The position numbers and the translations under genes are program-made. From Nocardia goodfellowii (GTDB lineage: Bacteria > Actinomycetota > Actinomycetes > Mycobacteriales > Mycobacteriaceae): DNA of 64,000 nucleotides. Shown here one piece after another: positions 14,994 through 17,504 of the stretch. Below the pieces are notes generated by a model. The model was not told where the DNA came from, ran no database searches, and saw only the letters and a list, made by a program, of their open reading frames with translations. The DNA lies in NCBI RefSeq assembly GCF_017875645.1, contig NZ_JAGGMR010000001.1, forward strand, positions 6,634,001-6,698,000, given 5' to 3'. Every line of letters begins with the position of its first letter. Position 1 is the first letter of the stretch.

Positions 14994-15431
14994 GTGGACG
15001 ACATCGACGATTTCGACGTGGCCGCCTTCACCACGGCGATCGAGGACTTCAACCGCTGCTACATCCGCATCCCGGTGCGGGAAAAGCTGCCGTTCACCAC
15101 CCTGTCGGTGCTCGACACCCTCGCCACCCGAGGGCCGACGCGCCTGACCGATCTGACCGTGACCGAGCAGCTGACCCAGCCCGGTATCACCCAACTCGTC
15201 ACCCGTCTGGAACGCGACGGACTGGTGTTGCGCCGCCGCGATCCCGCAGACGGGCGGGCCGTGCTCGTGCACCTCACCGACGCGGGCCGACAGGTGCGAG
15301 ACAACCGTCGCGACGACCGCGTCCGGCACCTCACCCCGATGGTTTCCGAGCTGAGCCCCGCACACCGTCGAGCACTCGCCGCAGCGCTGCCCGCCCTCAC
15401 CCGGCTCGCGGAGCTCGGACGTGCGCGCTGA
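14994..15431 (+). CDS. MarR-family regulator
   Basis: The 145-residue product has a MarR winged helix: recognition region LTDLTVTEQLTQPGITQLVTRLERDGLV followed by the wing RRRDPADGRAVLVHLTDAG. It uses a GTG start 84 bp from the divergent epoxide hydrolase gene, with a perfect palindrome between them. It probably represses itself and the hydrolase until an aromatic or lipophilic ligand binds. The ligand is unknown. Confidence 0.88.
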   Translation: MDDIDDFDVAAFTTAIEDFNRCYIRIPVREKLPFTTLSVLDTLATRGPTRLTDLTVTEQLTQPGITQLVTRLERDGLVLRRRDPADGRAVLVHLTDAGRQVRDNRRDDRVRHLTPMVSELSPAHRRALAAALPALTRLAELGRAR

Positions 15432-15450: not shown

Positions 15451-15900
15451 TCACCCCGCGTTTCGCGGGTCGAACGCCTGGGCAACGGACAGGCTGTCTT
15501 CGTAGACGTGGTGGCGAGTGATCAGATCGTTCTCGACGGTGAGGTGCAGCGCGAAACGGGCGCTATAGGCGCGGCCGGTGGGCCGGGCGGTCTGGCGAAT
15601 CTCCCCCAGCACCACCGCATCCGGGCCGTCGACCAGAATGCGTTCTACCACCGTGCCGACTCGATCGGGCACGTGGTGCCGGGCGATTTCGCGATAGTGC
15701 TCAGCCGCGTCGGCGCGGGTGGCACGGTGCCGAATCCAGGGCGTCTCGTTCCGGCCGTGCTCGTGCTCGGGCCAATCCAATTTCCAGTCGCTGACCGGGG
15801 CGTACAGCGCGGCGGTTGCTTCCGGGTCGCCCGACCCGATCCGACGAAGTAGTTCTTCGACGACGGTACGAGTGGCGGTTGTCGCCGCGAGGTCGCTCAT
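15451..15900 (-). CDS. SnoaL-like / NTF2-fold protein
   Basis: The product is about 149 residues with an NTF2-like layout: N-terminal helix VVEELLRRIGSGDPEATAALYA, then a cone-shaped beta-sheet region with AVVLGEIRQTARPTGRAYSARFALHLTVENDLITRHHVYED. The family includes polyketide cyclases, hydratases and ligand-binding proteins, so no reaction can be assigned. I prefer the ATG giving MSDLAATT (15900); an ATG six codons upstream (15918) is also possible. It lies tail-to-tail with the MarR gene. Confidence 0.75.
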   Translation of the reverse strand: MSDLAATTATRTVVEELLRRIGSGDPEATAALYAPVSDWKLDWPEHEHGRNETPWIRHRATRADAAEHYREIARHHVPDRVGTVVERILVDGPDAVVLGEIRQTARPTGRAYSARFALHLTVENDLITRHHVYEDSLSVAQAFDPRNAG

Positions 15901-16117
15901 GACTGCCACCATGCCCAAGCCGGAGGGCGCTGTCGATTACCTCCGAGGTAATGGTGGTCTATCCCGCCGATGGTGTGAGCACGATTCTGCCGAACAAGGT
16001 CACCACCATCTTTTGCTGCACCAGGAGGACCGTCCCTCGTCCGACCGGCTACCGCCGGTCCCGCGACTGGCACCGGCTTCGGCGTCCCTGGACATGGGGC
16101 CCAGCGCGGTTCGGGTG

Positions 16118-16123
16118 TAACCT
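16118..16123 (+). promoter_or_regulatory. -10 element (TAACCT) for a leaderless leader-peptide transcript
   Basis: TAACCT fits the actinobacterial TANNNT -10 pattern and ends 7 bp before the ATG at 16131. Transcription would then begin at or next to that ATG and the leader peptide would be read from a leaderless mRNA. No Shine-Dalgarno precedes the ATG, which agrees. No clear -35 was found at 16-19 bp spacing. Confidence 0.5.
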
Positions 16124-16130
16124 GCCGACC

Positions 16131-16181
16131 ATGCAGCGCGCTCGATTCACTACGACGCCGGACGACGTCCCGGCGCGCTGA
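16131..16181 (+). CDS. threonine leader peptide (16 residues, Thr-Thr-Thr) of a putative attenuator
   Basis: The short ORF reads MQRARFTTTPDDVPAR and stops at 16179-16181. Codons 7-9 (16149-16157) are three consecutive Thr codons, ACT ACG ACG. The ORF ends 15 bp before an intrinsic terminator, which itself lies 38 bp before a threonyl-tRNA synthetase gene. This matches ribosome-mediated attenuation: scarcity of charged tRNA-Thr stalls the ribosome on the Thr run and changes which hairpin forms downstream. The arrangement is read directly from sequence; the function is inferred. The larger in-frame open stretch upstream of the ATG is not supported. Confidence 0.75.
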   Translation: MQRARFTTTPDDVPAR

Positions 16182-16206
16182 ACACTGTTCTGATCAAGCC
16201 CCGGGC
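16156..16206 (+). promoter_or_regulatory. attenuator leader: protector and antiterminator segments
   Basis: Segment 1 CGCCGGAC (16156-16163) overlaps the last Thr codon and can pair with segment 2 GTCCCGGCG (16167-16175) with one bulged C. The CCCGG of segment 2 (16169-16173) can alternatively pair with CCGGG (16201-16205) in the 5' arm of the terminator, a 5-bp antiterminator. A ribosome stalled on Thr codons would cover segment 1 and free segment 2. One at the stop codon would cover segment 2 and let the terminator form. The short antiterminator helix is the weakest part of the model. Confidence 0.55.
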
Positions 16207-16224
16207 GGATGCCCGGGGCTTTTT
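16197..16224 (+). terminator. intrinsic terminator (attenuator hairpin) upstream of thrS2
   Basis: AGCCCCGGGC (16197-16206), loop GGAT, GCCCGGGGCT (16211-16220), then a T-run to 16224: a perfect 10-bp GC-rich stem followed by T residues. It lies between the Thr-rich leader peptide and the synthetase start, so it must be read through for synthetase expression. Confidence 0.85.
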
Positions 16225-16262
16225 CCGTGTGCTGATCCGCCCATACCTGGGAGGAGACCCAC

Positions 16263-17504
16263 GTGCACGACCACCGGAAATTGGGCCGAGAACTCGGCTT
16301 GTTCGACAGCGACCCGCTGATGGGGGCCGGGCTGCCGTATTGGTTGCCGGACGGCGCGATCGTGCGCCACAGCCTCGAGGAGTACATCCGCGCCGCGGAA
16401 CGGCAGGCGGGCTATCAGCACGTGTATTCGCCGGTGCTGGGAAAACGCGAACTGTACGAAATCTCTGGGCACTGGGCGCATTACCGCGATGACATGTACC
16501 CCGCGATGGACCTCGGTGGCGAGCAGGTGGTGCTGCGCCCCAGTTTGTGCCCCCATCACGCTTTGATCTACCGGTCCCGCTCGCACAGCTACCGGGAGCT
16601 TCCATTGCGAATGGCGGAGCTCGGCGCGATGTACCGTTCCGAATTATCCGGCGTGCTCGGTGGTTTGACCCGCGTGCGCTGTATCCAACTCAATGACGCG
16701 CACATCTTCTGCACTCTCGACCAGGTAGCCGACGAAGCCGCGGGCGCGCTCGCGATGATCGGCTCCGCCTACCGTGCGATGGGGATCAGCACCGAGCGCT
16801 ACCGGTTGTCACTGCCCGGTGCGGGCGGCAAATACGTTGCGGCACCGGACATGTGGCGGCACGCCAGCAAAATTCTGCGCGAGGTACTCGACCGATCCGG
16901 CGTGCGGTACGAAGCCGTCGAGGGCGAAGCCGCGTTCTACGGCCCGAAAATCGATGTCCAGGTGCGTGATCACGCCGGCCGCGAGTCCACCCTGTCCACC
17001 GTCCAGGTCGACTTCTATCAGCCCGAACAGTTCGGGCTGCACTACACCGGTGCCGACGGCGCCAAACACCGCCCGGTCATGGTGCACCGCAGCATAATCG
17101 GCAGCGTCGAGCGTGCGGTCGCCCACCTGATCGAACAGCACGGCGGCGCCTTCCCCGCTTGGCTGGCCCCGGTGCAGGCAGTGCTATTGCCGATATCCGC
17201 AGCCGAAGCGGCCGCGGCCGCCGCACTTCGTGACCGATTCCTCGAAGCCGGTGTGCGCGTGCGAATGATGGACGCGGAAGCGGGCAGCCTGGCCGCACGC
17301 GTACGGGAAACCCGCCTCGTGCCCTACCAGCTCATCCTCGGCCCCGCCGAAACCGCGAACGACGAAGTAGCCATCCGGCTGCGCGACGGACGCCGCATAC
17401 CCGCCCAACCGGCGCACGACGCGCTGGCACGTATCCGTGCGACTATCGAAAACCGCGACACCGCTCTGTGGCCGGAGTTACGGCCGCGCTCTCGAATACT
17501 TTGA
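16263..17504 (+). CDS. short threonyl-tRNA synthetase lacking TGS and editing domains
   Basis: The 413-residue class II synthetase starts at the catalytic core (DHRKLGRELGLF, GLPYWLPDGAIVR, ISGHWAHYRDDMYP) and ends with an anticodon-binding domain (about 300-400). Bacterial ThrRS is normally about 640-690 residues with N-terminal TGS and editing domains; both are absent. The zinc ligands are present as Cys96 (LCPHH), His147 (DAHIF) and His275 (MVHRS). The 51-residue Cys-His spacing equals that of E. coli ThrRS, so activity is likely. It has a GTG start with a strong GGGAGGAG site. Upstream lies a Thr leader peptide plus terminator. It is probably a second, inducible ThrRS, perhaps tolerant of a ThrRS inhibitor; that role is inference. 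Confidence 0.88.
   Translation: MHDHRKLGRELGLFDSDPLMGAGLPYWLPDGAIVRHSLEEYIRAAERQAGYQHVYSPVLGKRELYEISGHWAHYRDDMYPAMDLGGEQVVLRPSLCPHHALIYRSRSHSYRELPLRMAELGAMYRSELSGVLGGLTRVRCIQLNDAHIFCTLDQVADEAAGALAMIGSAYRAMGISTERYRLSLPGAGGKYVAAPDMWRHASKILREVLDRSGVRYEAVEGEAAFYGPKIDVQVRDHAGRESTLSTVQVDFYQPEQFGLHYTGADGAKHRPVMVHRSIIGSVERAVAHLIEQHGGAFPAWLAPVQAVLLPISAAEAAAAAALRDRFLEAGVRVRMMDAEAGSLAARVRETRLVPYQLILGPAETANDEVAIRLRDGRRIPAQPAHDALARIRATIENRDTALWPELRPRSRIL

Follow-up and report, generated by a model that had tools for sequence, protein, structure and literature searches.

A threonine leader peptide and a conserved RNA fold upstream of a second threonyl-tRNA synthetase gene in actinobacteria

In many soil actinobacteria, a short leader ORF carrying a run of threonine codons, together with a conserved RNA fold, probably switches on a second threonyl-tRNA synthetase (ThrRS2, gene thrS2) when charged tRNA-Thr is scarce, as judged from sequence comparison. 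The example followed up here lies in a stretch of 64,000 nucleotides of Nocardia goodfellowii, called the window below, to which all coordinates refer. That the leader senses Thr-tRNA by ribosome-mediated attenuation as such appears very likely from the comparison; the whole scheme, in which this attenuator of an auxiliary, editing-less ThrRS is combined with a second, translational gate taken from fold models, seems to us slightly more probable than improbable. At the DNA level, the window locus contains the following elements.

16118..16123, + strand: −10-like box TAACCT (TANNNT), 7 nt 5′ of the leader ATG, giving a leaderless start (sequence, conserved spacing)
16131..16181, + strand: leader ORF of 16 codons, MQRARFTTTPDDVPAR followed by a stop (read directly, kept in relatives)
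16149..16157, + strand: Thr codon triplet ACT-ACG-ACG (read directly)
16249..16255, + strand: thrS2 Shine-Dalgarno sequence GGGAGGA (read directly)
16263..17504, + strand: thrS2, start codon GTG, a short ThrRS of 413 aa with catalytic core and anticodon-binding domain only (Pfam)

The 16-codon ORF with three tandem Thr codons and, behind it, a ribosome site and a second ThrRS gene lie exactly where the original prediction had placed them. The leaderless start that it proposed is likewise supported by the TANNNT box at 7 nt and by the lack of a Shine-Dalgarno sequence upstream of the leader ORF. A mechanical scan of the leader region returned no sigma-70 promoter and no −35 match. On the 5′ side of the leader lie genes for a MarR-family regulator (window 14994-15431, + strand) and a SnoaL-like protein (window 15451-15918, − strand); of the upstream genes that family search recognizes, the nearest has minus-strand orientation.

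The leader is linked to ThrRS2. At a strict cutoff, ThrRS2 is patchy in Nocardia, being found in 45 of 118 genomes, surveyed by protein search after a permissive sequence pattern had been dropped as too noisy; across the class, 62 of 394 genomes have it (17 of 137 sampled genera). Both surveys combined, with two places common to them, give 105 distinct ThrRS2 places, and in 99 of these a leader ORF encoding Thr-Thr-Pro starts 5 to 8 nt after a TANNNT box. Six places were not counted: two failed the rule (L078, L111), one had no protein anchor (L108), and three had short upstream sequence (L130, L156, L169). The leaders of L108 and L111 are nonetheless visible in their sequence, and L008, the twin of L078, reads ATTP. 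The leader core was absent from all 30 housekeeping thrS loci. A search of 396 genomes of the phylum with the leader pattern hit five, each time before this ThrRS. Among 27 loci on genome contigs, the 21 actinobacterial ones (Nocardia, Streptomyces, Crossiella, Microbispora, Streptosporangiaceae, Nocardiopsis) all have the leader 5′ of the match, in a degenerate form in L021; the other six belong to other phyla, and there the 260 nt 5′ of the match resemble, by eye, the rest of a full-length ThrRS.

The 128 leader ids reduce to 107 distinct leaders, seven having been missed by the rule (L008, L021, L078, L130, L156, L169, L054) and the rest being identical copies. Their typical peptide reads MxRA-x(n)-TTTP-[DE]xxVPAR-stop, with an N-terminal part that differs in length among relatives. 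Aligning the orthologous leaders, as had been suggested for checking the Thr run, shows it to be conserved, with three codons in a row in 103 of 107 and two in the other four. ITTP replaces TTTP in N. vulneris and N. brasiliensis (L006, L010, L025) and ATTP does so in N. altamirensis (L008), leaving only two Thr in the run. The divergent members L166, L167, and L168 (52 to 56% protein identity) keep TTTP, while the remainder of the peptide has drifted.

The choice of Thr codon is also unusual. ACG makes up 299 of 346 Thr codons in the leaders, compared with 69 of 762 in the ThrRS coding stretches of the same set (n=87), where ACC is the usual Thr codon (665 of 762). Since the second and third Thr codons belong to a conserved stem, the bias is partly structural; yet of the 103 triple runs, 83 also begin with ACG, although the first codon lies outside that stem. 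Use of this less common codon suggests that one tRNA-Thr isoacceptor serves as the sensor.

Within the leader RNA, the alignment and folds point to the following elements.

16134..16141, + strand: S1, CAGCGCGC, pairable with 16173-16180 (pairing in alignment)
16173..16180, + strand: 3′ partner of S1, GCGCGCTG, overlapping the stop codon (pairing in alignment)
16156..16161, + strand: 5′ arm of the protector stem P2, CGCCGG, pairing with 16170-16175 (fold, RNAalifold)
16170..16175, + strand: 3′ arm of P2, CCGGCG (fold, RNAalifold)
16166..16173, + strand: S3, CGTCCCGG, predicted 5′ strand of the antiterminator, pairing with 16201-16207 (prediction only)
16196..16221, + strand: H4, a terminator-like hairpin followed by a T-run ending at 16224 (sequence, fold)

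The leader of the window folds more stably than its shuffles (z = −3.79). Pairing between S1 and its partner, which joins the start of the ORF to its stop, holds in 97.9% of cells over 7 pairs in an alignment of 82 of the 107 leaders (20 removed as more than 94% alike; L112, L154, L166, L167, and L168 left out), and slid controls reach at most 58%. Covariation says little about S1 because its columns hardly vary, and the protector stem P2, whose fold agrees with the hairpin first proposed, is nearly invariant across the alignment as well. In the window's own fold, S1 pairs instead with 16227-16234 (GTGTGCTG), located 3′ of H4, enclosing the whole leader; most relatives carry GGTC where this segment has GCTG.

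H4 had been described as a 10-bp GC stem with a T-run. The hairpin and five T residues (16220-16224) are there, but the GC core is 9 bp (16198-16206 with 16211-16219), or 11 bp counting A-T pairs. A mechanical scan reported no terminator at H4, in our view probably because it counted the A-T pairs as stem and was left with too few T. The antiterminator is predicted once the 5′ half of the leader is covered, and is slightly longer than first drawn (about 16166-16173 with 16201-16207): with the 3′ arm of H4 cut off as well, it folds at −13.7 to −22.8 kcal/mol in all 12 leaders tried (window, −16.8). In the 12 stalled full-length folds, which include that arm, H4 still prevails at equilibrium every time; thus, the choice between terminator and antiterminator would have to be kinetic, made during transcription.

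No Rfam family, T-box included, reached its gathering score in the window, so that a T-box or other catalogued RNA family can be rejected. When 16080-16300 was scanned permissively, every match stayed below threshold (best Leu_leader, 26 bits, where the gathering score is 50; E = 0.0013) and none was a T-box, in line with the absence of a T-box noted originally.

H4 was found by rule in all but 4 of the 107 leaders (L018, L073, L104, L131), and what follows it differs among lineages. At least three U follow 26 of the 40 Nocardia hairpins (five in the window), whereas outside Nocardia the run of consecutive U is no longer than two in 58 of 63 hairpins. Relatives that lack a U-run may therefore have no intrinsic terminator, which suggests the need for a gate at translation. 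In this respect, the sequence 3′ of the hairpin contains a further helix, S4b:S6, that did not appear in the original prediction, and a predicted hairpin over the thrS2 ribosome site.

16203..16210, + strand: S4b, GGGCGGAT, upper 5′ arm and loop of H4, pairing with S6 (covariation, RNAalifold)
16235..16242, + strand: S6, ATCCGCCC, partner of S4b and predicted partner of the Shine-Dalgarno sequence (covariation, masking)
16236..16255, + strand: predicted hairpin burying the Shine-Dalgarno sequence (folds, accessibility)

S6 is located 24 nt downstream of S4b, and RNAalifold gives the helix between them unprompted. Over 82 sequences, 93.9% of its cells are paired, compared with 31 to 54% in slid versions, and 50 cells show double changes against 14.9 in shuffles; over the same sequences, neither the pairs with a double change nor the further pair types exceed shuffles. 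In 96 of 100 sequences (L146, L167, and L168 were dropped besides the four without H4), a leader's own S6 beats the mean of swapped partners, a swapped S6 being equally good in 16% on average, and the S4b loop types (GGAU, GAGU, GAGC, GGGU, AAGU, GAAC, and others) are mostly matched by S6. On a tree of 53 of the 65 distinct ThrRS2 proteins, only two to three supported independent changes can be counted for each column pair of the helix; these are concordant wherever both sides differ, with none opposite, but too few for significance. The original prediction had proposed to look for covarying hairpins in the leader; S4b:S6 does covary, while the S1 and P2 columns are near invariant. S4b:S6 and the upper half of H4 compete with each other, and the helix arises past the termination point, so that it could not by itself keep transcription from ending.

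S6 may also bury the Shine-Dalgarno sequence of thrS2, which would imply a translational gate. In folds of the 100 sequences, mean accessibility of this site is 0.25 and rises to 0.50 when S6 is masked, compared with 0.32 when other windows are masked and 0.33 with the upstream part shuffled; for the N. goodfellowii leader it rises from 0.17 to 0.64, although masking S6 gains more than 0.3 in only 39 of the 100. The region 3′ of H4 is more stable than dinucleotide shuffles in Nocardia and elsewhere alike (mean z = −1.68 for 40 Nocardia and −1.67 for 60 others; window, −2.06). Pairing in the Shine-Dalgarno columns (77.4%) exceeds slid versions (42 to 50%) but hardly the shuffles (76.4%), and with covariation this small we rejected these columns as proof of a translational gate, which therefore rests on the fold calculations. 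Burial was no stronger in members without a U-run than in the others among the 100 sequences, which gives no help to the idea that these rely on it more.

From comparison, covariation, codon bias, and gene linkage we infer stalling, termination, antitermination, release of the Shine-Dalgarno sequence, and the signal itself, in the following order. RNA polymerase would start at or beside the leader AUG, and a ribosome would load without a Shine-Dalgarno sequence. When Thr-tRNA is plentiful, the ribosome would reach the stop codon and either cover S3 or release it into the protector stem; H4 would then form, ending transcription if the hairpin is followed by a U-run, as it is in the window, while S6 would bury the thrS2 Shine-Dalgarno sequence of read-through transcripts. 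When the Thr-tRNA that reads ACG is short, the ribosome would stall on TTT and mask S1 and the 5′ arm of P2, so that the freed S3 could pair with the 5′ arm of H4 and transcription would continue; S4b would then pair with S6, exposing the Shine-Dalgarno sequence. Relatives whose hairpin lacks a U-run would be controlled mostly through the translational gate.

How much of this scheme is needed depends on the alternatives. Control might be by transcription attenuation only, in the manner of trp or pheST, with H4 acting as an intrinsic terminator, U-poor or factor-assisted, and with S4b:S6 and the Shine-Dalgarno pairing being secondary or serving RNA stability. The T5 after H4 in the window, the U-runs of most Nocardia hairpins, the predictable antiterminator, and the weak Shine-Dalgarno covariation would all fit, but U-runs are missing from most hairpins outside Nocardia and S4b:S6 is nevertheless kept with compensating changes; we consider this reading possible but doubtful. 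What emerges is that the leaderless Thr attenuator of a second ThrRS proposed originally is strongly supported by comparison, but that plain intrinsic termination is too narrow an account, given the U-poor hairpins, the covarying downstream helix, and a possible partner that buries the Shine-Dalgarno sequence. It is improbable, though worth weighing, that the leader ORF answers slow translation in general, as caused by ribosome-targeting drugs, within a WblC/WhiB7 response, instead of Thr-tRNA. Of the 107 leaders, 30 carry the GAAAWY box of WblC-dependent promoters (PMC7157823, consulted in part) 44 to 47 nt 5′ of their start, compared with a mean of 0.19 and a maximum of 2 in shuffles (the search range of 38 to 50 nt was fixed only after the box had been noticed by eye in some leaders), and thrS2 of Streptomyces coelicolor is among the WblC-activated genes in the portion of that paper used here; we assume that it belongs to the same gene family as ThrRS2. 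However, the conserved run is of Thr and stands before a ThrRS, the window's own leader promoter (the WhiB7-type box was looked for there) has no GAAAWY, and promoter control can add to attenuation instead of replacing it.

Could the short ORF encode a functional peptide, next to a hairpin that is ordinary structure? The peptide does preserve TTTP and, frequently, VPAR, but its N-terminal length varies, and in L150 and L151 the frame shifts at the peptide end (VPAR) while the RNA letters stay unchanged, so that there the RNA and not the peptide is conserved. A conserved function of VPAR is disfavoured by these two leaders, and we regard a functional peptide as very unlikely. Chance, finally, could place a short ORF and another gene's terminator side by side, both short ORFs and hairpins being abundant in GC-rich genomes; but the recognized upstream gene is on the minus strand, so that there is nothing upstream to terminate, and linkage to ThrRS2 at nearly all of its places argues that the leader is not chance, making this reading next to negligible. 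Attenuation in response to Thr-tRNA remains the preferred account.

The enzyme under this leader is a reduced one. The thrS2 product scores 441 bits against the thrS model and shares 43% identity over the common part with the housekeeping ThrRS (ThrRS1) of the same genome, and Pfam matches in ThrRS2 comprise the catalytic core and the anticodon-binding domain and nothing else, the editing domain being absent. A housekeeping ThrRS is present in the window genome and in 30 of 30 ThrRS2-bearing genomes searched (of 105). The human residues M411, Q460, L567, and A592 interact with borrelidin according to the part of PMC4389257 drawn on here. At the corresponding positions, 65 distinct ThrRS2 proteins have S (64), L (65), Q (65), and S (63), and 30 ThrRS1 proteins have M (30), Q (30), L (23; Q in 6), and A (30). 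The same part of that source states that the borrelidin Ki goes up when the Escherichia coli residue corresponding to L567 is changed, and that archaeal, borrelidin-resistant ThrRS carry serine at A592 (PMC4389257). It is tempting to predict from these residues that ThrRS2 tolerates ThrRS inhibitors such as borrelidin. Against this count that ThrRS1 itself is unlike the human enzyme at two positions, having W at H391 in 24 of 30 proteins and N at Q566 in 26 of 30, and that Staphylococcus aureus ThrRS, the best PDB match, likewise has L at Q460. We rejected ThrRS2 as a zinc-sparing enzyme, the three zinc ligands being kept in 65 of 65, and an obafluorin-type glycine change, Gly being present in 65 of 65. 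Some ThrRS2 (L119, L157, L159, L160, L162, L163) are, by eye, extended near the N terminus, between the start codon and the DHRK motif, by a segment with abundant His and Pro or Asp, which is repetitive in L119 and possibly binds metal. One genome (G859) has three ThrRS matches: the housekeeping enzyme, ThrRS2, and one with a 681-aa open frame.

The suggestion that such an attenuator may be undescribed does not hold: RNA-seq reannotation of Streptomyces lividans TK24 placed a leaderless thrL, MKRVRPFLETTPGFVPAR followed by a stop, before thrS, as given in the part of PMC8079986 used here, which also lists leaders before trpS, leuS, and alaS. Like the window leader, thrL is a leaderless Thr peptide before thrS, and the window peptide, closing with TTTPDDVPAR-stop, shares its TTPxxVPAR-stop ending; unlike it, the S. 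lividans hairpin is given there without a uridine-rich run, whereas the window has T5 and three Thr. The portion of PMC8079986 consulted treats thrL in one species, without alternative structures, a downstream helix, a Shine-Dalgarno gate, or a cross-genus comparison. It also lists a metL leader before metNIQ as methionine-dependent, and this contains TTTPG, like L166 to L168. Predicted attenuators of Streptomyces trpS and leuS share with thrS2 a leader peptide with cognate codons before an actinobacterial synthetase; in the part of PMC1262725 used here, no downstream helix comparable to S4b:S6 is mentioned for them, and no conserved structure is reported upstream of threonine operons. In our view, the sequences make the window leader in substance of the S. 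lividans thrL type and a member of the same family.

Elements of the scheme recur in other systems. The E. coli pheST attenuator is like the thrS2 leader in that a leader peptide with cognate codons controls synthetase genes, and unlike it in having a Shine-Dalgarno sequence and in controlling the only PheRS; it ends in a U-run. Mycobacterial attenuators with a leaderless poly-cysteine ORF resemble it in the short leaderless ORF with a codon run, in their case of Cys, and regulate a gene that is not a synthetase. An auxiliary, antibiotic-resistant TrpRS of S. coelicolor, studied by Vecchione and Sello in 2010, is reportedly under ribosome-mediated transcriptional attenuation: it too is a second synthetase behind an attenuating leader, for Trp and not Thr, and its inhibitor resistance is said to have been shown, whereas that of ThrRS2 is predicted. 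A second ThrRS beside a housekeeping editing enzyme is also found in Anabaena, where, according to the part of PMC4787780 used here, T2 of the T1/T2 pair is inducible and editing-defective; T2 is controlled by Zur and zinc and keeps a degenerate editing domain, whereas ThrRS2 has none. We found no other account of a Thr leader before ThrRS2 in the open-access literature, outside of which most subscription papers lie. What the present comparison adds is the S4b:S6 helix and a possible Shine-Dalgarno gate, together with the lack of U-runs outside Nocardia, the preference for ACG, and the changes at borrelidin-contact positions.

Joining the two halves of the analysis, we can envisage, tentatively and on the basis of models, a two-gate switch in which the H4 loop and the Shine-Dalgarno sequence compete for S6 and uncharged tRNA-Thr turns on a borrelidin-tolerant ThrRS2, although we think it rather less probable than not. 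If true, poisoning of the housekeeping ThrRS would be read out as uncharged tRNA-Thr, and lineages without a U-run would keep the translational gate only. Taken together, a widespread leader that, in the literature we searched, has been briefly noted in one species is given an explicit, testable mechanism with a covarying helix, and the results suggest that translation may be the step controlled by actinobacterial leaders that lack a U-run. They also connect this shortened second synthetase with how the cell senses threonine charging and, possibly, with naturally occurring ThrRS inhibitors.
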